Assembly: GCA_027717875.1 (NCBI GenBank)
Contig: JALLOL010000098.1
Coordinates: 1-8,669, forward strand
DNA: 8,669 nt
Source of the DNA: Acidobacteria bacterium AH-259-L09
GTDB lineage: Bacteria; Acidobacteriota; UBA6911; RPQK01
Direction: 5' to 3'
Shown: piece by piece, positions 1 through 8,669 of the stretch
Layout of the letters: every line of letters starts with the position of its first letter
Position numbering within the stretch: position 1 is the first letter of the stretch
The notes under the pieces: model-generated
The model's database searches: none
Told to the model about the DNA's origin: nothing
Seen by the model: the letters and a program-made list of their open reading frames with translations, nothing else
Position numbers and translations under genes: made by a program

Positions 1-14
1 ACCGAAGACAAAAA

Positions 15-950
15 TTGGCCCGAGCCGGCTTTCAATCCTTGCCGGTTACGATTGCTGACGCCGGCGCAAACGCGCGACGGCGCTTCATTGAATTTTTTAC
101 AGCCAATATCCGAAACAAGAACACCCGGGCTGCCTACGCACGAGCTGTCGGGCAATTTTTTGAGTGGTGCGAAGCTCAGGGCTTCCAGCTTGAGCATATC
201 CAACCCGTCATCGTGGCGGCTTATATCGAACAGCACCCCGGCTCAAAGCGCACCATCAAGCAGCACCTGGCTGCGATTCGGATGCTCTTTGACTACCTGG
301 TCACGGGCCAGGTGGTGCCCTTCAACCCGGCAGCCGCTGTGCGCGGACCCAAGTATGTGGTCAGGCGCGGAAAGACGCCAGTGCTCAAAGCCGAGCAGGC
401 CCGTGACCTGCTGGATTCCATTGATACCGGTACGGTCGTGGGCTTAAGAGACCGTGCTCTCCTGGGTGTCATGTGCTACACCTTTGCGCGCGTCGGAGCG
501 ATCGTCACCATGCGCGTCGAAGACTACTACGTAAACGGCAAGCGCTGGTGGTTCCGCTTGCACGAGAAGGGCGGCAAGCGCCACGAGGTCCCAGCACACC
601 ACAATGCCGAGGCTTACATGGATGCTTACTTGGCAACAGCCGGCATTACCCAGCAGAAAAAAGGTCCCCTGTTTCGCAGCGTGGATAAGCACCGGAAGCT
701 GACCGACAACCCTATGACCCGAACGGACGTGCTGCGCATGATCAAACGCCGCGCCCAAGCAGCAGGACTTCCCTACTCCACGTGTTGCCACACAGTCCGC
801 GCCACCGGGATTACCGCTTATCTGGAGAATGGCGGGACCATCGAGAATGCCCAGGCGATCGCCGCGCATGAGTCTCCAAGAACCACCAAGCTCTACGACC
901 GGACAGGTGATGAAATCACCCTGGATGAGGTGGAGAGGATTGCGATTTGA
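15..950 (+). CDS. Tyrosine recombinase / phage-type integrase (XerC/D-like)
   Basis: Site-specific DNA recombinase of the tyrosine recombinase family, which cuts and rejoins DNA through a covalent 3'-phosphotyrosine. An N-terminal SAM-like core-binding domain (about residues 20-105, containing NKNTRAAYARAV) is followed by the catalytic domain (about 120-311). The catalytic set looks complete: R159 (TFARVGAI), K185 (HEKGGKRHE), H259 and R262 (HTVRATG), H285 (AAHESPRTT) and nucleophile Y294 (KLYDRT). The length of 311 residues is normal for XerC/D-like integrases. The start given is a TTG, and the frame stays open to the left edge of the window, so the true start may lie outside. No tRNA or attachment site is visible beside it. 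It probably belongs to an integron-like, plasmid or genomic-island module rather than being the housekeeping Xer, because the AAHES box and context are atypical; that is inference. Confidence 0.93.
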   Translation: MARAGFQSLPVTIADAGANARRRFIEFFTANIRNKNTRAAYARAVGQFFEWCEAQGFQLEHIQPVIVAAYIEQHPGSKRTIKQHLAAIRMLFDYLVTGQVVPFNPAAAVRGPKYVVRRGKTPVLKAEQARDLLDSIDTGTVVGLRDRALLGVMCYTFARVGAIVTMRVEDYYVNGKRWWFRLHEKGGKRHEVPAHHNAEAYMDAYLATAGITQQKKGPLFRSVDKHRKLTDNPMTRTDVLRMIKRRAQAAGLPYSTCCHTVRATGITAYLENGGTIENAQAIAAHESPRTTKLYDRTGDEITLDEVERIAI

Positions 951-1026
951 GCCAGTCCCAAGGACGTGGTGAGGCAGTTTCAGCAGAAATGGTGAGCGAG
1001 GGGAGTGAGTTTCAGAGGAAGTGGTG

Positions 1027-1932
1027 ATGAAGAAACAAGCGCAGATAAGCACGATATGCGCCACACTAGCTATTTACTTGTCGATTCCCGGGCTTTTAAT
1101 GGCTGAGGCTGTAGCCTCTGAGACCTCCAGCCAAGAAGCCTTACAGGAGAAACGAAGCATGGCAATAACCGATCTAGTAGCACTGGTAGCGCCAGTCAGC
1201 ATACGTAGGAGAGGCAAACAGATCGCTTCGGCTTCTGGGTTCTTTTACAGCAGAGCGGAAGACCTTTTCTTCGTGACGAATCGCCACGTTGTAATCAAAG
1301 AGGGCAAAAACTTCTACCCCGACGAGCTATCTTTGCGCCTTCACACCGACCCTAATAACATTCGGAAAAATGACAATCTTACAGTTCCTCTTTATAAAAA
1401 TCGGAAACCCCTCTGGTTGGAGCACCCAAAACATGGCCCCAAGGTAGATGTAGTGGCTATACCAATCCCGCGTGAGCGAACACAGAAGCGCTTTTTTATA
1501 CGGGCTTTTTCAGCCCAGAACCATATCCCTAACGATGTTGTCGTTTCTATTGGCGAAGACGTCCTAGTGCTCGGATTTCCACTCGGTTTTCATGACCTGG
1601 TCCACAATCTGCCTATCGTCCGAAACGCCACCCTAGCGAGTGTTTATCCTGTTCCCTTCCAAGGCCAACCATTTGTTCTGATTGATTCCCGCCTTCATAG
1701 CGGTACCAGCGGTAGCCCCGTTATAACTAAGGAGACCGCCATTTTGAGAAAAACTGATGGAAGCACCGCTTTGTTGAGCGGAGGCGGAGCGACGTTCTTC
1801 CTCGGCGTTCATTCTGCTTCTATCGACGTAATCAACCGTGATCCAACTCAGGACGAGCCACTAGGATTAAACGTGGTGTGGTTTGCTTCTCTTGTCGAGG
1901 AGATAGTGAGTGGCTTAAGAGAACCGCATTAA
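1027..1932 (+). CDS. Secreted trypsin-like serine protease (S1 fold, Deg/HtrA-like catalytic domain without PDZ)
   Basis: Predicted exported endopeptidase of 301 residues. Residues 1-30 form a Sec signal peptide: MKK, a hydrophobic stretch, then a region around LLMAEAVA. The chymotrypsin-fold triad is visible: H87 in TNRHVV, D141 in PKVDVVAI and S228 in SGTSGSPV. No PDZ domain follows, so it is shorter than HtrA/DegP. I chose the ATG at 1027 over the two GTG codons just before it, because the purine-rich AGAGGAA at 1013-1019 is well placed for 1027 and too close for 1021. It follows the recombinase by 76 bases in the same direction, so it may be cargo of the same accessory module. Its target is unknown. 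A hairpin-forming run of C and G at 1981-1999 follows the gene. Confidence 0.85.
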   Translation: MKKQAQISTICATLAIYLSIPGLLMAEAVASETSSQEALQEKRSMAITDLVALVAPVSIRRRGKQIASASGFFYSRAEDLFFVTNRHVVIKEGKNFYPDELSLRLHTDPNNIRKNDNLTVPLYKNRKPLWLEHPKHGPKVDVVAIPIPRERTQKRFFIRAFSAQNHIPNDVVVSIGEDVLVLGFPLGFHDLVHNLPIVRNATLASVYPVPFQGQPFVLIDSRLHSGTSGSPVITKETAILRKTDGSTALLSGGGATFFLGVHSASIDVINRDPTQDEPLGLNVVWFASLVEEIVSGLREPH

Positions 1933-2005
1933 GCCCCACCAACCGCCTCAGAATCGCCCGTCGGGAGGTGGGCAAGGACTCCCCCCTACCCTGCGGGGGA
2001 TATAA

Positions 2006-2239
2006 TTGGCGTGTGGTCTTGAAATAAATTCGATTACCTCAGAGCGAGCTTCCGTGAATGATGAAGTTTTGGCTGACACCGGCGGAACGACGGTTTTTTT
2101 AACACCTGGGATCCAGTGGGTGCTCACACCCCGTTTGCTGGTTGAAGCTGCCTTTCAAATCCCGATCATTCAGGAACTCAACGGCACCCAGCTGGTCTTC
2201 GCTCCCACGGCCAATGCAGGAATCCCCCTGCTATTTTAG
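2006..2239 (+). pseudogene. C-terminal remnant of an outer-membrane beta-barrel protein
   Basis: A 77-codon open frame that starts directly after an in-frame TAA (2003-2005). It begins with GLEINSITSERASVND and ends in IPLLF. Its final segment PIIQELNGTQLVF closely matches PVVQDLNGTQLGL in the intact barrel at 6264-7220. The preceding residues also align: FLTPGIQWVLTPRLLVEAAFQIP against the FTGLFILFDPKPDWLFNFNVEFP region. Only the last three or so beta strands remain, with no signal peptide and no credible ribosome-binding site. I therefore read it as the 3' end of a gene whose front was lost by insertion or deletion near 1935-2005. An intact small protein is less likely. It ends 48 bases before the sigma factor gene. 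Confidence 0.72.
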
Positions 2240-2287
2240 GGGCCGAAGACCCTGAGGGCGAGCCCGCAGGACATCGAGCCGAAAAAA

Positions 2288-2911
2288 ATGGAAGGATTTT
2301 CCCTTCAAGTGCATCCAATAGATAACGGACAGCAAAGTGCATCTCTCACACAGGAAAGCAAACCTCTGTTGGAGAAAGAAATCATTGAGCGTTGTCAGTC
2401 CGGGGATGAAGAGGCTTTTCGCGCAATCTTTGACCGCTATCAGAGGAAGATTTTTGGGCTTTGCTATCACTTTACCGGGAACGGCTCTGACGCGGAGGAG
2501 CTCACACAGGAGATCTTTTTGAAAACGTATCTTTCCATAGGGCAGTTCGACTTTCGCTCCAGCTTTTACACTTGGCTTTTCAGAATTACAGTGAACGAGT
2601 GCCTCCAGCATCGAAGAAAAAAGAGACCCCGAAGAGTACCCTTGGAGGAGCGGACGTTCTCGCTTTCGCCGTCGGAGAGTCTTCCACTTGATTCGGTCTT
2701 AAGTCATGAAAAGCAAGAGCAGGTTCGACAGGCGCTGAAAAAGCTACCCGGAAGATACCGGTTGGTCCTGCTCTTCAAGGAGATTGATGGACTTTCGTAC
2801 GGGGAGATGGCGCGGATTTTCGGGGTATCGGAAGGGACCATCGCATCGAGGCTGAATCGGGCGCGTGAACGATTCCGCAAAGCCTATGAAAAGGAGGTGA
2901 GCGAGTCTTGA
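2288..2911 (+). CDS. ECF (sigma-70 family, RpoE-like) RNA polymerase sigma factor
   Basis: Extracytoplasmic-function sigma factor of 207 residues, which directs RNA polymerase to a small stress regulon. Sigma region 2 spans about residues 42-111 and includes DAEELTQEIFLKTY and FYTWLFRITVNECLQHRRK. Region 4 spans about 143-197 and includes LPGRYRLVLLFKEIDGLSYGE (given here only to LSYGE) and the helix-turn-helix GVSEGTIASRLNRARERFR. A basic linker lies between them and region 3 is absent, as in all ECF factors. The start is uncertain: ATG 2288 has only a weak purine tract upstream, and a start nearer residue 28 would give a more usual N-terminus. The stop overlaps the anti-sigma start (TTGA), showing translational coupling. 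The pair sits directly upstream of exported metal-binding genes and may control them. No clear ECF promoter was seen. Confidence 0.93.
   Translation: MEGFSLQVHPIDNGQQSASLTQESKPLLEKEIIERCQSGDEEAFRAIFDRYQRKIFGLCYHFTGNGSDAEELTQEIFLKTYLSIGQFDFRSSFYTWLFRITVNECLQHRRKKRPRRVPLEERTFSLSPSESLPLDSVLSHEKQEQVRQALKKLPGRYRLVLLFKEIDGLSYGEMARIFGVSEGTIASRLNRARERFRKAYEKEVSES
2891..2900 (+). promoter_or_regulatory. Strong ribosome-binding site that fixes the TTG start of the anti-sigma gene
   Basis: AAGGAGGTGA is an almost perfect Shine-Dalgarno sequence inside the end of the sigma factor gene, seven bases before the TTG at 2908. It supports the non-ATG start and the four-base overlap between the two genes. Confidence 0.8.
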
Positions 2912-3792
2912 AATTGGCCTGTTTTTGGCTGCGCCGGGAATTATCGCCTTACCTGGACGGGGAAATCCCACCCCTCGTGGCGGAAAAAATCGGGAATCAT
3001 CTGGAGCGCTGTCCAGAGTGTGAAAAAGAGCTGGAGGCACTGCAGGGTCCAGGTCGCCTCCTTCGTCAAATGGAGACTCCTCCTGCTCCACCCCATCTTT
3101 GGGAAACGGTTCTAAAGCGCCACCAAGGACGCGTGCTCAGCAAAGATCGAGAGGCAGATCGACGGCTGCTGCCACCTTTTCGTCCGCGATGGGCGCTGAC
3201 CCTGCTGATTGTGGGAGCCTTTGTTGTCCTAACGGTGTTGCTGGTCCCCGAGCTCACCTTTTTGCGTCATTCCTCTCTGATTATCAACCAAGCCCAGGCC
3301 ATTGATCTCGGTCTCTATCTTGATGAATTAAACAAAGGCTCTTCCTTGCGGACTTTCGATCAAAAACATCAGGCTGCTAGGGTGTCGGCGGACGAAGCCA
3401 GACAACAATGTCACTTCAGGGTTGTGATCCCTCAGTCTCTCCCCGGCGGTTACCGCCTGGTTCAAACAAAACTGCTGAAAAGCATATGCTGTTTTGCTAC
3501 CCAAAACGATTATCGCGCCAATGGGACTGTCATTTACATTTTCGAACTTCCTCCTCAGCACCCCATTGACTTCGGCCGTCGAGAACTGATCCGCAAGATG
3601 GTGAATGGGCTGCAATACAACGGGGTCAAAGCGGAGAACTTCCAGGTGATGAACTGGGAAGGTTCCGATCTCAACCTCACGCTACTCGGAAACCTGCCCG
3701 AGGAGGAGCTAGTAAGAATTTTGAAATACCTGACGACCCAGGGAGAACAGGGTCAGCTTCACAGCTATTCTCAACAGAAAGGAGGTGCATAG
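2908..3792 (+). CDS. Membrane-anchored anti-sigma factor with N-terminal zinc finger (zf-HC2/ZAS)
   Basis: Partner and inhibitor of the overlapping ECF sigma factor; 294 residues. The cytoplasmic N-terminus carries the ZAS zinc-binding motif HLERCPEC (H31, C35, C38) plus C5, after the typical LSPYLDGEIP segment. A single transmembrane helix lies at about residues 95-113 (WALTLLIVGAFVV region). The periplasmic part (about 114-294) contains VVIPQSLPGGYRLV and a terminal LNLTLLGNLPEEELVRI block. This resembles the DUF4367 or MucB/RseB C-terminal type of periplasmic sensor domain; the assignment is tentative. Three periplasmic cysteines (C168, C194, C195) are unusual and could bind metal or sense thiol state. 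The start is TTG with an excellent ribosome-binding site. The microprotein gene begins three bases after this gene ends. Confidence 0.88.
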   Translation: MKLACFWLRRELSPYLDGEIPPLVAEKIGNHLERCPECEKELEALQGPGRLLRQMETPPAPPHLWETVLKRHQGRVLSKDREADRRLLPPFRPRWALTLLIVGAFVVLTVLLVPELTFLRHSSLIINQAQAIDLGLYLDELNKGSSLRTFDQKHQAARVSADEARQQCHFRVVIPQSLPGGYRLVQTKLLKSICCFATQNDYRANGTVIYIFELPPQHPIDFGRRELIRKMVNGLQYNGVKAENFQVMNWEGSDLNLTLLGNLPEEELVRILKYLTTQGEQGQLHSYSQQKGGA

Positions 3793-3795
3793 CCA

Positions 3796-3921
3796 ATGCG
3801 AAAGAAAGTTCTGATTGTCGTCTTGTTTTCGCTTCTGGCGCTGGGCGGTGCCACATTGGTGGCGGCGAACAGCATCATGGGCTGGGGCGCGAACTGCTGT
3901 GGTTCATGTGAAGTGAAGTGA
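3796..3921 (+). CDS. 41-residue exported cysteine-rich microprotein
   Basis: Short open frame starting three bases after the anti-sigma stop, with a near-perfect ribosome-binding site (AAAGGAGGTG, 3778-3787) eight bases before the ATG. The product begins MRKKVLIVVLFSLLALGG, a signal peptide or single membrane helix. After a likely cleavage near LVAA it ends in a short tail, NSIMGWGANCCGSCEVK. The three cysteines (C34, C35, C38) in 41 residues make a CCxxC cluster suited to soft-metal binding or thiol redox. I do not recognise a family. Its place as third gene of the sigma/anti-sigma operon suggests it is made with, or acts on, the stress response. It could be a metal-binding peptide or a small regulator of the anti-sigma factor; both are inference. 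Confidence 0.72.
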   Translation: MRKKVLIVVLFSLLALGGATLVAANSIMGWGANCCGSCEVK

Positions 3922-3935
3922 CTTCACTCCCGCCC

Positions 3936-3977
3936 ATAGAGGTGCAGGTCTGGGCTAGCCCAGACCTGCACCTCTAT
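3936..3977 (+). terminator. Perfect 42-bp palindrome, probable terminator or attenuator
   Basis: A perfect inverted repeat with 21-base arms centred between 3956 and 3957. The left arm begins ATAGAGGTGCAGGTC and the centre is GGGCTAGCCC. As RNA it would form a very long GC-rich hairpin, followed by the weakly U-rich TTTCTAAAA. It lies 14 bases after the microprotein stop and 30 bases before the HMA gene. It could therefore end the sigma operon, attenuate readthrough, or protect the transcript end. It could also be a palindromic protein-binding site or a miniature repeat element. A smaller palindrome, AGTGAAGT-G-ACTTCACT (3912-3928), overlaps the microprotein stop. Confidence 0.6.
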
Positions 3978-4007
3978 TTCTAAAAAGCAGTATAGATGGA
4001 GAAGGAA

Positions 4008-4340
4008 ATGAAGCATTTGAGTGTTTTTCTCATTCCTATTTTGGCTTGTCTCCTGGTTTTTTCCTTCGCCTTGCCACGGGATCCGGGCAAGGTGGTTCTT
4101 ACCATCGAGGGTAAAGGGGAAATAAAGGGGATGGTTTGCGCGGGCTGTAAGCGCACGGTGGAAAACGCCCTCAAGAAGGTGGAAGGGGTGCATCAAGTGG
4201 CGGTGGATCTCAAAGAGCAGGAAGCAAGAGTAGAGTTTGACCCGGAAAGGGTGAAAGAAAAAAATCTGATCAAGGCTGTAGAAGAAACAAAGATATTTAC
4301 CGCCAAGGTGAAAAAAAGAATAAAACAGAAAGGGTCATGA
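4008..4340 (+). CDS. Exported heavy-metal-associated (HMA, MerP-like) metal-binding protein
   Basis: Periplasmic metal-binding protein of 110 residues. A Sec signal peptide (about 1-22, MKHLSVFLIPILACLLVFSF) is followed by one HMA domain of ferredoxin-like fold. The metal-binding loop is GMVCAGC (C44 and C47), followed by RTVENALKKVEGVHQVAVDL and VEFDPERV, the usual HMA pattern. The fold and size match MerP and CopZ-like chaperones, which bind Hg(II) or Cu(I) with the two cysteines; the metal here is unknown. I prefer ATG 4008 because GGAG at 3998-4001 is suitably placed. An in-frame ATG at 3996 would add four residues (MEKE) but has no ribosome-binding site. It is the cysteine counterpart of the Sec-containing HMA protein two genes downstream. 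Confidence 0.85.
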   Translation: MKHLSVFLIPILACLLVFSFALPRDPGKVVLTIEGKGEIKGMVCAGCKRTVENALKKVEGVHQVAVDLKEQEARVEFDPERVKEKNLIKAVEETKIFTAKVKKRIKQKGS

Positions 4341-4446
4341 CGGTTCGGTGGAGCTCCTTTCTCTTCATTCCTTCCAGCCGTTGAGAGGGCCGAAAATCCT
4401 ATAGGACGGGTCCACAGCGAGAAGAGCTGCATTGGGTTTGTGAGTC

Positions 4447-5037
4447 ATGAAAGTAAGAAGTACGACGAAGCGCCTTCTTTTAATTTGTATGGTGTCTCTT
4501 TTGCTGCTGTGCTTCGCCTTGAGCGAAAATGCGCGAGCTCAGACTGCCGGATCCGTGGAAACCATCCCAGTTGACAATACGGAAGCGAAGAACGATGGTC
4601 TGGGGTTTATGCCCACCTTTGAACTCAAGGACCTCAAGGGCAACGTCGTTTCGTCTGCCCAGTTTAAGGGAAAAGTTCTGATGATTGATTTTTGGGCCAG
4701 TTGGTGCGCTCCGTGCCTGAAAGAGATGCCTCATTTTCAGAAACTTTACGAGCAGTACCAGAGGCAGGGATTTGAGATGGTGGGTATAACCTTGGACGTG
4801 GATCCGGCGGATGTGCAGAAGGTGTTGGCGGAAACTGGGGCTCGCTACACGATGCTCTTTGCCGACGAAGAAGACCGGATTCAGGCGGCTTTTGGAGTTC
4901 AAGGGATCCCCAGCACCTTCATCATTGATCGGGAGGGGAAGCTCCGAGAAAAAATCGTGGGCTTTGCCTACAAAGAAGAATTCGAGGAGATACTAAAAGG
5001 GTCACTTGCAGATTCAATCAGTATGAGGAGCAGGTAA
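4447..5037 (+). CDS. Periplasmic thioredoxin-like protein, TlpA/ResA family
   Basis: Thiol-disulfide oxidoreductase of 196 residues, usually membrane-tethered or secreted and acting in the periplasm. Residues about 8-32 are a signal peptide or anchor (RLLLICMVSLLLLCFALS). The thioredoxin fold (about 53-185) carries the active site WCAPC (C87, C90) in DFWASWCAPCLKEMPHF, and the cis-proline P155 in GIPSTF. Members of the family reduce disulfides during cytochrome c maturation or keep metal-binding thiols reduced. Between two HMA proteins, a plausible job is to reduce their CxxC or UxxU sites; that is inference. There is no strong ribosome-binding site before the ATG, and 106 bases separate it from the HMA gene. 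That spacer shows no other feature I can support. Confidence 0.92.
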   Translation: MKVRSTTKRLLLICMVSLLLLCFALSENARAQTAGSVETIPVDNTEAKNDGLGFMPTFELKDLKGNVVSSAQFKGKVLMIDFWASWCAPCLKEMPHFQKLYEQYQRQGFEMVGITLDVDPADVQKVLAETGARYTMLFADEEDRIQAAFGVQGIPSTFIIDREGKLREKIVGFAYKEEFEEILKGSLADSISMRSR

Positions 5038-5065
5038 GAAGCCCACAGAGAAGGAGAGAGAAAGT

Positions 5066-5581
5066 ATGAAGAGTTTCAAGACCTTTCTTGGATTGTTATT
5101 AGGGTGGCTGTGGATGACATCGGCGTATGGGGCCATTGAGTCGGTGGAGCTAACGGTCCATGGCATGACCTGAAATGCTTGAGCATTCGGGGTCCAAAAG
5201 ACCCTGGAACGCCTGGATGGCGTTCGAAAAATCGAAGTCAACCTGCTGAAGGGATGGATCAAGATCCTACCCAAGGAAAATTTCCAACTGGATCCTCTGA
5301 AAATCTGGAAACGTGTGGATGACAGCGGCATCACCACGGACCGGATCGCCATAACTGCGCAAGGCATACTGGTGGAGGGAAAGGAAGGCGAACTTACCCT
5401 GCAGATTCCGGAGACGGAGCAGACGTACAGGCTCTCTGGGGAGCAAGCAGAAAAGTTGAAAGTGGAAGCTCAGGCTGGGCAAAGCGTCTGGACTTCAGGA
5501 GTGATTTTTCAGGCCCAGGAAAAGAAAGAGAAGCCTTCAAGGAGCCGTGTGCTTGAAGTGACTGAATACCAGATCCCTTAA
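5066..5581 (+). CDS. Predicted selenoprotein: HMA metal-binding domain with Sec-x-x-Sec (two in-frame UGA) plus an uncharacterised C-terminal domain
   Basis: One frame runs from ATG 5066 to TAA 5579-5581 (171 residues), interrupted only by TGA at codons 36 and 39. The product has a signal peptide (MKSFKTFLGLLLGWLWMTSAYG), then the HMA start ESVELTVHGMT-U-N-A-U-AFGV, continuing QKTLERLDGVRKIEVNLL. The two UGAs sit exactly where the HMA motif GMTCxxC has its metal-binding cysteines. Coding character continues through both UGAs, the ribosome-binding site AAGGAG (5051-5056) is good, and hairpins suited to a SECIS element follow at once. About residues 88-171 form a second beta-rich region (ITAQGILVEGKEGELTLQIP) with no cysteine, family unknown. 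Likely role: periplasmic binding of a soft metal with selenolates instead of thiols. It lies 28 bases after the TlpA gene, probably in one operon. A double sequencing error or pseudogene is possible but would have to hit both ligands. selA, selB, selC and selD are not in this window. Confidence 0.85.
5171..5182 (+). other. Two recoded UGA codons forming the Sec-x-x-Sec metal site
   Basis: TGA-AAT-GCT-TGA, codons 36 and 39 of the gene at 5066-5581, read as U-N-A-U. They replace both cysteines of the HMA loop, which is preceded by the intact HGMT. No other in-frame stop occurs before the TAA at 5579. Confidence 0.82.
5174..5225 (+). promoter_or_regulatory. Candidate bacterial SECIS region: three consecutive hairpins after the UGA codons
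   Basis: Three small stem-loops can be drawn by eye. The first is AATGC-TTGA-GCATT (5174-5187), which puts the second UGA in its loop. The second is GGGTC-CAAAA-GACCC (5190-5204). The third is GAACGCC-TGGAT-GGCGTTC (5207-5225), with a 7-bp stem. Bacterial SECIS elements lie inside the coding region just after the UGA and usually have a G in the first two bases of the apical loop. The third hairpin meets this (loop UGGAU) and its loop begins 32 bases after the second UGA. Which hairpin serves the first UGA is unclear. The role is inferred from position and shape; no folding program was run. Confidence 0.6.
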
Positions 5582-5664
5582 GAGTGCGGGGTACTCCGGA
5601 AGATCAAGGCAGGGCAAAATCTGGTAAGGAGGAAACGTCTTCGAGTTCCGCTTAACTTAATTTT

Positions 5665-5670
5665 GGAGGA
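5665..5670 (+). promoter_or_regulatory. Ribosome-binding site that decides the YHS protein start
   Basis: GGAGGA lies seven bases before ATG 5678. It overlaps the longer candidate start TTG at 5663, which therefore cannot be the true start. Confidence 0.75.
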
Positions 5671-5677
5671 ATTAGCC

Positions 5678-6085
5678 ATGAGAAAAAGAAAGGCGCTAAC
5701 TTTAATGTTTGTTTGCCTGGGATTGCTGGTTCCGGCGACTTACTGGGTTGCGCAGTCGGCGCAGGAGACTAAGACGGAAAAAGCAGAAGCGGAGGAAGAA
5801 GTCGTCATCTGCTTTCTGTGTGATGCGGCCGGAATGCCCATGTACCTGAAGGACACCATCAAGGTGACGTACAAAGACCGGGCGTACTATGTGTGCAACA
5901 AGCGTGAGGAGATGCAATTCAAGAAAAACCCGGGAAAGTGGATCTTTGCTATTGATCCCATATCCGGGAATAAGATCAACAAGCACGACGCGGTCATTTA
6001 CAAACACAACGAGGTGGCTTACTTTTTCGAAACGGTCGCGAACCGGGACAAATTCAAGGCCAAGCCGGACAAGTATGTTGAGTGA
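5678..6085 (+). CDS. Exported protein with two YHS/TRASH-like repeats
   Basis: Secreted or membrane-tethered protein of 135 residues. A signal peptide (about 1-28) is followed by a charged linker rich in Glu and Lys. Repeat one (about 44-89) has CFLC (C45, C48), then YKDRAYYVCNKREEMQFKKNPGKW with C73, giving a C-x2-C...C pattern as in metal-binding YHS/TRASH modules. Repeat two (about 91-135) has the YHS layout DPISG ... VIYKHNEVAYFFET ... FKAKPDKYVE. However, S96 replaces the usual Cys of DPVCG, and the later Cys is missing too. Repeat two thus keeps the fold but probably not the metal site. YHS domains are common in copper, silver and mercury handling proteins. The gene follows the selenoprotein by 96 bases and likely belongs to the same system. 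The metal is unknown. Confidence 0.78.
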   Translation: MRKRKALTLMFVCLGLLVPATYWVAQSAQETKTEKAEAEEEVVICFLCDAAGMPMYLKDTIKVTYKDRAYYVCNKREEMQFKKNPGKWIFAIDPISGNKINKHDAVIYKHNEVAYFFETVANRDKFKAKPDKYVE

Positions 6086-6263
6086 CTTCTGGAGCTGAAA
6101 CATGCCGGAGGAAATCGTGAAGGATCATAACTGGCCTCATCCGTTGAGCGTGCATCTGTAGGGAGGGACTGTCGAACCGTTTAGGATGCGTCCCCTGGTT
6201 CCATGAGGGAGTGACATCCTCTTGACGTACAGGGGAAGTGATAGTGAAGGAAGTTGAGGAATT

Positions 6264-7220
6264 ATGAAATCGAGAGGACGATCGAGCTTTTTTCTGCTTG
6301 GGTTCGTGATCCTGAGCACTCTGTTTTGGTTTTCGCGCTTTGCGGTGGCACAAGGGGTGAGTCCACAGACTGGGACCACCCTTTTTCAAGGGGGCAGCTT
6401 CCTGAACTTCAACTCGGTTTTTTTGGGTCGGGACAAGCTGCGGATCGATGGCCGGGAGGCAGAGGATCCACAGGATAGAGATGTTTTTGTCAATGTGTTC
6501 CCCATTAACTGGGGATGGGGGTTTTGGCACGATAACCAGATATTGGTTTCAGTTCCTTTTGTGAGGAAAGACCTCGACTTTACCGGACCCGCTGGGGATC
6601 GGATCACCGGGCTCGGGGGTAGTGGTGTGGGGGATATTTTGCTCTTATACAAGCATCGATTTCTTCGTCTTGACCGTGCGGGGGGAACAACTCAGGTAGC
6701 CTTCACCGTCGGGCCGAAACTTCCCACCGGCTCCAACGAGGAGCGTGATCAAGAGGGCAAACTGCTCCCGCCGTCGCTTCAACCGGGATCCGGTTCCACC
6801 GACGTGCTCTTCGCGGTGGCTGGCTCCCACGTCGTCCAAAAGTTCACAGTGAACGTAAGCGCCACCTACAAGCTCAACACAGAGGGGACTCAGGACGTCA
6901 AGCGAGGGAATCTGTTTGAGCTGCGCTCATTGATCAACTACCGATTCTGGCAGGCGCCGTATCCAGGACCGGAGCTGTGGTTGGGGCCGATCTTCTCCTA
7001 TGAAGTCTTGCAGCGCGATCGCGTAAACGGCGTGCCGGCGCTCAACAGCGGGGGACGGCAATTTTTCACGGGTCTGTTCATCCTGTTTGACCCGAAACCC
7101 GATTGGCTCTTCAACTTCAATGTCGAATTCCCAGTCGTCCAGGATTTAAACGGGACCCAGTTGGGTCTCAAACCTCGCATCAGTTTCGGGGTCATCAAGC
7201 AGTTATTTTTCGGGAGTTAG
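6264..7220 (+). CDS. Outer-membrane beta-barrel protein (transporter / Phenol_MetA_deg-like)
   Basis: Predicted outer-membrane protein of 318 residues. The signal peptide covers about 1-30 and ends FAVAQ. The rest alternates short polar turns with amphipathic strands (for example DVFVNVFPINWGWGFW, QILVSVPFVRKDLDF, TQVAFTVGPKLPTGSNEE and QFFTGLFILFDPKPDWLFN), typical of the 'transporter' barrel family often annotated as putative phenol/meta-pathway outer-membrane proteins. The C-terminal block PVVQDLNGTQLGL is shared with the gene remnant at 2006-2239. It could provide an outer-membrane route for the substrate handled by the periplasmic proteins upstream, but the sequence does not show the substrate. 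The 178-base spacer before it contains an imperfect inverted repeat (AGGGAC near 6164 and GTCCC near 6190) and no promoter I would defend. Confidence 0.8.
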   Translation: MKSRGRSSFFLLGFVILSTLFWFSRFAVAQGVSPQTGTTLFQGGSFLNFNSVFLGRDKLRIDGREAEDPQDRDVFVNVFPINWGWGFWHDNQILVSVPFVRKDLDFTGPAGDRITGLGGSGVGDILLLYKHRFLRLDRAGGTTQVAFTVGPKLPTGSNEERDQEGKLLPPSLQPGSGSTDVLFAVAGSHVVQKFTVNVSATYKLNTEGTQDVKRGNLFELRSLINYRFWQAPYPGPELWLGPIFSYEVLQRDRVNGVPALNSGGRQFFTGLFILFDPKPDWLFNFNVEFPVVQDLNGTQLGLKPRISFGVIKQLFFGS

Positions 7221-7241
7221 TAAAACAGAGGTATTTATTTT

Positions 7242-7715
7242 ATGGGCTACAAAGGCCATTTCGTTGGAGTGTTCGTGTTGGGTATCAGCCTCGCTGTCGG
7301 TTTGCCGTCGCTTTTTTCCCAATCCGAGAAATCGGAAGGCTCGCTTGAGGGAGTTTGGGCGGGATCCTGGAGGGCGCGAAAAATGGGGATGGGCAACCCG
7401 ATCAAAATCGAATTCAAACGCCGGAACGGAAAGCTAATCGGGATAGCCCACGTCAGGGGTGAGTCTTACGAGCTTGAGAGTCTTAAGTTTTCGCCGGCAG
7501 CGAAAAAGCTATCTTTTGAACTTCCTTACAGCAATCCTGATTTGGGTAAAGACGTTCGTTACAAAGCACAAGTCAAGTGGGAGGGTAATACAATCACCGG
7601 GACGTGGGAACACGAACAAAGTGAAGGGACGTTTAAGTTGACTCGGCTGGCGGATACTAAACGAGAAGGAAGCGGCCCTTCTCCAGCAACTCAGTCGATT
7701 TCTGAACCGAGTTGA
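7242..7715 (+). CDS. Small secreted beta-rich protein of unknown function
   Basis: 157 residues, ATG start with a modest AGAGG ribosome-binding site, 21 bases after the outer-membrane gene and so probably co-transcribed with it. A signal peptide covers about 1-26 (FVLGISLAVGLPSLFSQ). The mature part begins LEGVWAGSWRARKMGMG, continues with alternating strands (KIEFKRRNGKLIGIAHV, LSFELPYSNPD, YKAQVKWEGNTITGTWEH) and ends with EGTFKLTRL. The opening GVWAGSW and the closing GTWEHEQSEGTFKLTR resemble a lipocalin-like or calycin-like secreted domain seen in environmental bacteria, but I do not recognise a named family. It has no cysteine, so cysteine metal binding is excluded. The last 20 or so residues are Ser/Pro-rich and probably disordered. 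Confidence 0.75.
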   Translation: MGYKGHFVGVFVLGISLAVGLPSLFSQSEKSEGSLEGVWAGSWRARKMGMGNPIKIEFKRRNGKLIGIAHVRGESYELESLKFSPAAKKLSFELPYSNPDLGKDVRYKAQVKWEGNTITGTWEHEQSEGTFKLTRLADTKREGSGPSPATQSISEPS

Positions 7716-7922
7716 AGGTTCGCGAAACATTTGTGGCAGTACTATTCCAGGAGAAGATCTGCTTCCACGGATTGTTTTTCCGCTTTCACAACCGATTTCC
7801 GGTAGTCCGGCACTTAACCTTGCCTGTCCTTCTCGACTTTGTAACTGCCGACGAGCTATCCGGCCTTTCTTGGCGGAGGCGTTGAAAAGGACCACTCTTC
7901 ACAGCGTATGCGAGGCCACTAA
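7716..7922 (+). other. Stretch without a recognisable gene
   Basis: All frames on both strands are broken by stops or carry only low-complexity shadow translations. I saw no tRNA, repeat, promoter or terminator that I can support. It forms the left part of a gene-poor interval reaching to 8514. Confidence 0.6.
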
Positions 7923-8386
7923 CACACTCCTTCCGCTCGGTGGGAGAGGGGAAAGGGGCAGCCCAGCAGAAAATTCTTGGAAGTCATTGAGACCTTCTTT
8001 CGTGGTCTCGAGAATCGCGACAGACTCACTGGTCGAAGCATCAGGCACGTTTACACCGAGGACTTCCGGGGTTTTTCCATTCGCGTCGTCCCAGAAATAG
8101 GAGCAGCTGATATAGTGGCTGATGAAGTGATCAGGGTTGAGTCTGACCTGCTGGTTTCTATTCCCCTCCCCAGAAGGGTTAGAAGGCGCCTCCTCCAGGT
8201 AAGGGGCCTGGAAATGGTGGCGGAGATGACGGTACTCAACCTAGTCGGGTAGTTCCCATGGGTGTGGACAGAATCGGTGCTGATCTGAGCACCACCGCAA
8301 ACATCGATGGAAGCCATAAAAGAGTGGATGTGGATATAGCTGTCCTGGAACAGGATCCTCGATATTATTACGGGATTGGTGGCTGA
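7923..8386 (+). pseudogene. Frameshifted, truncated S8 (subtilisin-family) serine protease remnant
   Basis: Two frames together spell the front of an extracellular subtilase. Frame one (open 7923-8252) contains the inhibitor-like prodomain: SIRHVYTEDFRGFSIRV, then VIRVESDLLVSIPLP. Within about 8150-8182 the match moves to the next frame, reading KAPPPGKGPGNGGGDDGTQP, then VVPMGVDRIGADLSTTANID and HKRVDVDIAVL. The linker and the VDRIGA...DVDIAV block are typical of the start of a subtilase catalytic domain. Where the catalytic Asp motif (DTG or DSG) should follow, the sequence diverges to EQDPRYYYGIGG and stops at TGA 8384-8386. The catalytic Asp, His and Ser regions are all absent, so the gene is dead. 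No convincing signal peptide is visible upstream. Confidence 0.68.
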
Positions 8387-8434
8387 TTTACAACGAGGAC
8401 ACCTGAACAATGCTCTTGAAAAAGCAAATTCCTA

Positions 8435-8460
8435 GTCGCGCAAGTCGCGCAAAATTTTTT
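8435..8460 (+). repeat. Tandem 9-bp repeat followed by an A/T run
   Basis: GTCGCGCAA occurs twice in a row (8435-8452) and is followed by AAAATTTTTT-type sequence up to 8460. CGCG-CAAGT-CGCG can form a weak 4-bp hairpin before the T run, so it might act as a poor terminator. Alternatively the A/T run is an UP-like element just before the -35 of the MerR gene promoter. Confidence 0.45.
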
Positions 8461-8461
8461 C

Positions 8462-8492
8462 TTGGCCCTCCAGTAACGGGAAGCTTTAAACT
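8462..8492 (+). promoter_or_regulatory. MerR-type promoter and operator upstream of the regulator gene
   Basis: A -35-like TTGGCC (8462-8467) and a -10-like TAAACT (8487-8492) are separated by 19 bases, the long spacing typical of promoters activated by MerR-family proteins. The spacer holds CCCTCCAGTAACGGGAAGC, an imperfect dyad closely resembling the CCTTCCAGTAACTGGAAGG-type operators of metal-sensing MerR proteins. It lies 22 bases before the GTG start, so it probably gives autoregulation of the regulator and of any genes transcribed after it. Confidence 0.65.
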
Positions 8493-8514
8493 CCGACAGA
8501 AAGGAGTAGTTAAA

Positions 8515-8669
8515 GTGTCGAATAAGGACTTGCTCATAGGGGAGGTGGCAGCCAAAACAGGCCTCAACCCCAAGACCATTCGATACTACGAGGAAGTGGG
8601 CTTGATCCCCAAGCCCAGAAGGAGGCACACGGGCTATGCTTCTGCGGGCTACAGGCGCTATTCGGGGCA
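8515..8669 (+). CDS. MerR-family transcriptional regulator (N-terminal part, runs off the window)
   Basis: Fifty-one codons of a MerR-family activator are visible. The GTG start has a good AAGGAG ribosome-binding site (8501-8506) eight bases upstream. The product reads MSNKDLLIGEVAAKTGLNPK, then TIRYYEEVGLIPKPRRR, the classic MerR winged helix-turn-helix. The wing (HTGYASAGYRRYS) is a few residues longer than the usual xxGYRxY form. The effector-binding C-terminus is outside the window, so the inducer cannot be read. The promoter and operator just upstream resemble those of metal-sensing members such as CueR, ZntR and CadR types. It points away from the selenoprotein cluster and probably heads another transcription unit to the right, perhaps for metal resistance. 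Confidence 0.88.
   Translation, partial: MSNKDLLIGEVAAKTGLNPKTIRYYEEVGLIPKPRRRHTGYASAGYRRYSG

Follow-up and report, generated by a model that had tools for sequence, protein, structure and literature searches.

A predicted Sec-x-x-Sec HMA protein of Acidobacteriota, its tandem RNA hairpin, and a probable role in soft-metal trafficking

Most of what is known about selenium chemistry comes from redox enzymes. A "putative mercuric reductase" carrying a UxxU motif (U, selenocysteine [Sec]) was reportedly first found in an Olavius symbiont. The metal-binding (seleno)protein family NF041115 (UxxU_metal_bind) has two Sec residues (PMC13188914), a putative mercuric reductase with UxxU is listed in a second paper (PMC9312934), and MerP is among the selenoproteins of a 2008 ocean survey (PMC2398784); metal-binding selenoproteins of the UxxU kind are therefore already known. 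Here, we analyzed an 8,669-nucleotide stretch of Acidobacteria bacterium AH-259-L09 (GenBank assembly GCA_027717875.1, contig JALLOL010000098.1, positions 1 to 8,669), referred to as the window, and specifically a plus-strand gene of 171 codons at 5066..5581, predicted to encode an HMA (heavy-metal-associated) protein with Sec at residues 36 and 39. On the sequence evidence, this is a real selenoprotein gene, supported by the position-exact exchange of UGA and Cys, by a covarying tandem hairpin that follows the UGAs, and by genes for the Sec machinery in the carrier genomes. We consider it highly probable that the gene is read through with Sec at both UGAs, giving a likely exported carrier for soft metals such as mercury or copper via Sec-x-x-Sec. 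The selenoprotein interpretation had been put forward in a first-pass annotation made from the DNA letters and is supported here at the level of sequence; the identity of the metal, the affinity, and a metal rather than redox use are inferred.

The reading frame extends from ATG 5066 to TAA 5581 and, just as the first-pass annotation described, is broken only by TGA at codons 36 (5171..5173) and 39 (5180..5182), the first and second ligand Cys positions of the HMA loop, giving the motif GMT-U-NA-U. With C placed at both UGA sites, the product matches the Pfam HMA family (PF00403) at 34.1 bits, over a gathering cut-off of 24.8. For the ribosome-binding site, described earlier as good, AAGGAG was read by eye at 5051-5056, 9 nt ahead of the start. 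A likely signal peptide at residues 1 to 22 (5066..5131; hydrophobic N terminus read by eye, helix at 5-17) is the basis for predicting export. It is followed by the HMA domain (residues about 24-92; 5135..5341) and by a beta-rich C-terminal domain (residues about 96-171; 5351..5578) that is common to the family and has no Pfam match in the window protein; most family members are 158 to 199 residues long with this second domain present. TGA also acts as a functional stop in the window, since it terminates six of the 11 predicted genes, in line with the earlier description of TGA as a normal stop here. The expectation that standard gene callers would miss the gene or report a C-terminal part was borne out: they give an 88-residue open reading frame at 5315..5581 on the plus strand, and two protein searches returned no full-length copy of the product but only pieces, namely P0117 (88 residues, on two contigs, identical to the window's own C-terminal frame) and P0002 (105 residues, labelled partial).

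The first-pass annotation had named an assembly error at either TGA as a way in which the interpretation could fail. Such an error is unlikely, because both TGAs recur in independent genomes. Contig L001, titled Acidobacteria bacterium AH-259-G07, is 98.4% identical to window positions 2034-7241, and both TGAs are retained in its copy of the gene, which departs from that of the window at only two codons, both synonymous. An 88%-identical copy with both TGAs is also present in genome G267 (locus L019); between it and the window, none of the 60 nt around the UGAs has changed, and 46 differences fall in the remaining 453 nt of the gene. The partial protein P0002, named as from AH-259-G07, is closer to the copy in G267 than to the one on the 11-kb contig L001, which suggests two copies or a mixed assembly.

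The read-through protein found a match in 113 of the 396 genomes of the phylum searched; the member and stop-codon counts that follow from this search are among the matches listed. TGA was the sole stop type in 22 sequences, and in 19 of these the TGAs fall on ligand positions (12 at both, six at the first, and one at the second), so the placement is not attributable to chance. The other three (L069, L071, and L077) have TGA outside the motif and were dropped as members, as were L135 and L136, with TAG outside the motif. Relatives carry Cys or UGA at both ligand sites, with the in-frame UGA aligned to the Cys of homologues, which is what the first-pass annotation had anticipated. The exception is P0113, a database relative counted on 14 contigs; it has lost the two ligand cysteines (GLVSPLGTRGV) and is perhaps a non-binding form. 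In an alignment of 34 of the 36 listed sequences (L072 and L075 were left out because the frame was cut or over-long), no column is invariant apart from G33 and the pair of Cys/Sec sites; the invariance of the latter is partly by construction, because members for the folding, alignment, tree, and SECIS (selenocysteine insertion sequence) counts were selected with the motif G..[UC]..[UC]. A further alignment, A3, holds P0001 and 39 of 118 proteins. Before counting, we removed L018 (the gene of L001, the same as the window around the UGAs), L040 and L043 (different HMA proteins), and L044 (the same gene as L076).

All four ligand states occur in this family. On a 37-row tree built with the ligand sites masked, which has weak support for its deep branches, at least eight changes among UxxU, UxxC, CxxU, and CxxC are needed (shuffled mean, 16.4), and genome G377 contains UxxC and CxxC copies about 1 kb apart. 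A class search across 38 genomes listed no new UxxU member; it returned two shorter HMA genes from elsewhere with TGA at the first ligand site (L092, GMTUTGC, and L104, GMTUSGC) and two other one-TGA rows. The SAR324 locus L002 was rejected as a member, with Cys codons at both sites and tandem HMA motifs; by eye it is a P-type ATPase.

The RNA following the UGAs is structured. Positions 5171-5230 fold into back-to-back hairpins (-27.2 kcal/mol; z, -4.59), both on the plus strand: hairpin A at 5188..5206 (CGGGGUC-CAAAA-GACCCUG) and hairpin B at 5207..5225 (GAACGCC-UGGAU-GGCGUUC), the latter a predicted bacterial SECIS (bSECIS). Across an initial alignment of 12 UxxU sequences, 11 of them distinct, the two hairpins are in register, with 86.7% of cells paired and a covariation score of 0.326 compared to 0.169 +/- 0.024 for shuffles (0/500 as high) and no more than 0.137 when slid. 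The loop of hairpin B is closed by U-A, A-U, or U-G, or by U-U, as in the window. Against synonymous shuffles, the mean folding z was -2.36 for UxxU (n=12), -0.46 for single-U (n=7), and -0.88 for CxxC members (n=17). A 60-nt covariance model, R1, gave UxxU genes at least 56.9 bits and everything else at most 19.9 bits across 57 sources searched. Applied to the 396 genomes, with at most 13 candidates scored per genome under strict filters by which weak members can be missed, R1 produced 13 matches of at least 56.9 bits, all of them UxxU HMA genes; 12 had been used in building R1 or are identical to such sequences, and one is new (L126 in G020). Weaker matches at 27 to 37 bits (L131-L134) are not HMA genes, having broken frames and a best E value of 0.21 to the query protein.

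As given in a review, bSECIS elements have a loop of 3 to 9 nt, a stem of 4 to 16 bp, a G in the first two loop positions, a distance of 16 to 37 nt from the UGA, and a folding energy of at most -7.5 kcal/mol, and some selenoprotein genes lie outside these rules (PMC13188914). For the second UGA of the window, hairpin B falls within every limit (loop UGGAU, 7 bp, 31 nt, -11.0 kcal/mol), and the second UGA has a rule-passing hairpin in all 13 UxxU sequences.

Several results on folding weigh against a simple account of decoding. For the first UGA of the window, no hairpin passes the rules: the loop of hairpin A, CAAAA, is without the required G, and the loop of hairpin B is 40 nt away, beyond the limit of 37. 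At the first UGA site, seven of 13 UxxU sequences pass, compared with one of 17 CxxC sequences, and only two of the seven single-Sec members pass at their own site. The second site also passes in five of 17 CxxC sequences, which have no need of it, and the excess folding of all UGA members over CxxC members is marginal (p = 0.0497). A covarying SECIS-type hairpin is present after the UGAs, and under the strict rules it fits only the second UGA of the window.

Sec machinery was read in G001, the genome of the 98.4%-identical relative, which encodes selA (575.6 bits) and selD (369.5 bits, with one TGA). In the 12 UxxU genomes among the family matches listed, selA is present in 10, selD over the cut-off in 11, and tRNA-Sec with anticodon TCA in eight, and every genome has at least one of the three; G111 is the one without selD in the cut-off search. 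Because selD contains one in-frame TGA in 10 of the 11 genomes having it over the cut-off, SelD itself is likely also a selenoprotein. Other observations count on the opposite side. The SelB-like frame of G001 scores 219.8 bits, below the curated cut-off of 242.25; it ends at a contig edge and covers positions 78-578 of 581, and the SelB-like family also matches in every one of the 14 control genomes. The searches of G001, G267, G027, and G111 gave no tRNA-Sec: the Rfam tRNA-Sec matches of G001 are ordinary tRNAs by ARAGORN, and the best RF01852 matches of the other three are tRNA-Ser, which were left uncounted although 11 of the 12 genomes exceeded the cut-off. G267 and G307 are without selA. 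Furthermore, selA is over the cut-off in 249 of the 396 genomes of the phylum, so its presence in 10 of 12 UxxU genomes is no strong enrichment. In the nearest genome, the machinery check proposed in the first-pass annotation thus gave selA and selD, a SelB-like frame below the cut-off, and no tRNA-Sec. None of the three ways in which that annotation said the interpretation could fail was borne out.

Ahead of the UxxU gene in the window lie, in order, a sigma factor, an anti-sigma factor, a 41-residue CCGSC peptide, a Cys-type HMA protein, and a TlpA-like thioredoxin; after it come a YHS-like protein and a predicted barrel. The 41-residue peptide (3796-3921) ends in NCCGSCEVK, is likely exported, lies ahead of the metal genes, and is kept in L048 and L049. 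A long palindrome is visible by eye just after it, at about 3936-3976. The plus-strand genes that follow are the Cys-type HMA paralogue (GMVCAGC; 3996..4340) of the same cluster, a likely exported TlpA/ResA-like thioredoxin (WCAPC; 4447..5037) that is a possible reductant partner, a protein with weak YHS/TRASH matches below the cut-off (5678..6085), a predicted outer membrane beta-barrel (6264..7220), and the first part of a MerR-family regulator that runs off the end of the window (8515..8667). The barrel has no Pfam match of its own; two of three tested relatives match Phenol_MetA_deg (PF13557). A stray C-terminal piece like the barrel (17 bits) is found at window positions 2041-2239, and a similar piece is at 5295-5477 in L048. 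At the other end, window positions 1-2033 lie outside the stretch colinear with L001 and hold an integrase-like gene (15-950, named by eye) and a trypsin-like gene (1021-1932); the loss of colinearity may mark the border of a rearrangement or an insertion near 2034.

Relatives in other genomes help in reading this neighborhood. A barrel relative is on the same stretch in all 12 UxxU contexts (the window and L048 counted once; matches from 16 bits up), and a MerT-like gene is on the stretch in four of the 12. The clearest example is L053, with a barrel, a CsoR-like regulator (below the cut-off), the UxxU gene, MerT (Pfam, 67.8 bits), an FeS CopZ-type protein (115 bits), MerC (45.2 bits), and a flavoprotein, the three scores given being over their cut-offs. 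An NHL-repeat-like protein, named by eye, often neighbors the HMA gene elsewhere (L051, at 2372-3331, and L052, L054, L055, L056, L062, and L063) and is not in the window. The barrel gene beside the relatives, together with MerT and MerC in some, makes soft-metal trafficking via Sec-x-x-Sec the best reading. Two points speak against it: neither MerT nor MerA is present in the window, and the L053 flavoprotein scores 297.1 bits as glutathione reductase versus 290.3 as MerA, both below the cut-off.

In the mechanism that we propose, SelB and Sec-tRNA would decode both UGAs, with the 3' hairpin B (loop GG) serving the second and perhaps, together with the 5' hairpin A, the first as well. The exported protein would be located in the periplasm, where Hg(II) or Cu(I) entering near the outer membrane barrel could be bound between the two selenolates and handed on to a MerT-type or other transporter, and the neighboring TlpA-like thioredoxin may keep the diselenide reduced. 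With Sec as both ligands, the hold on soft metals such as mercury or copper would be tighter than with Cys.

The same neighbors allow a different account, in which the double-Sec protein is a redox (diselenide/selenol) protein or redox sensor with TlpA as its partner and not a metal carrier. Four of 12 UxxU contexts (the window, L049, L058, and L059) include a TlpA-like thioredoxin on the stretch, HMA and TlpA-type domains are fused in database protein P0049, and known selenoproteins are mostly thiol-type redox proteins according to one review (PMC9312934). However, the motif belongs to an HMA domain rather than a thioredoxin fold, and some relatives are in clusters with MerT, MerC, and MerR. 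For these reasons, the HMA site and the mer-type neighbors, we favor trafficking of Hg or Cu and regard a purely redox role as unlikely.

A change of decoding could also leave the protein an ordinary CxxC metallochaperone. UGA-reading tRNA-Cys and mischarged tRNA-Sec have been described, and either could place Cys at both UGAs, as other relatives encode at these sites. Plain Cys decoding would not need selA, selD, and tRNA-Sec (TCA), which most UxxU genomes have, nor would it need a SECIS-type hairpin, which is kept, making this account very improbable. Still less can be said for a pseudogene with two nonsense mutations, or for a 35-residue product followed by an unrelated downstream frame, as interruption under the standard code might suggest: the differences from the 98.4%-identical relative are only synonymous, the surroundings of the UGAs are unchanged in L019, 12 genomes share UGA at these two positions, and 12 other UxxU genes have a frame that continues uninterrupted beyond the UGAs (to the contig end in L046). 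An altered genetic code with UGA as a sense codon throughout the organism, to which two in-frame UGAs in one gene might point, is scarcely credible given that UGA terminates other genes of the window and that the relatives' in-frame UGAs sit at Cys sites.

Beyond the single gene, we lean toward a broader reading, held with less assurance than Sec insertion and soft-metal carriage by the window gene: a periplasmic diselenolate metallochaperone family of Acidobacteriota would occur in UxxU, UxxC, CxxU, and CxxC states in mer-like and other metal clusters, with one compact tandem-hairpin SECIS decoding two UGAs six nucleotides apart. All four Cys/Sec combinations at one two-ligand site offer a natural series on the role of selenium in soft-metal binding and transfer. 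The tandem hairpin is a compact natural example in which Sec would be inserted twice, two codons apart, which is hard for the known SECIS rules. As standard gene calling shortens such genes, metal-handling clusters in these bacteria are likely under-annotated.

The first-pass annotation could not say whether this architecture had been described; the kind of protein is already in reviews, as noted at the outset, and the subfamily itself lies outside the curated model. Our literature search, from which subscription papers were mostly out of scope, listed no match describing a two-domain UxxU subfamily. Like the window protein, NF041115 is a metal-binding HMA-type protein with UxxU, but its model is single-domain with 74 positions, whereas the window family has a second, beta-rich domain; the window protein reaches 39.6 bits where the cut-off is 95, and the lowest E value among 34 family members is 3.4e-14. 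MerP (TIGR02052) is likewise a likely exported HMA protein with GMTCxxC, and some relatives of the window gene adjoin MerT and MerC, but the window protein has an extra C-terminal domain and the window is without MerT; the score is 39.7 bits, below the curated cut-off of 92.55. NF045683, a MerT/CopZ fusion-like heavy metal transport selenoprotein, shares a metal-transport HMA part and Sec, but the window gene is without the MerT part (21.8 bits; cut-off, 375). Residues 22-100 share the fold of the CopZ/Atx1 copper chaperones and the CCS HMA domain, which are cytosolic, with CxxC, and are not known to carry Sec; the second domain of CCS is SOD-like, and the structural match over two domains is weak (TM, 0.38). 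Judged by these comparisons, what is new about this subfamily, which scores far below the curated models of its known kin, is its longer, two-domain form, its tandem SECIS, and the occurrence of all four ligand states.
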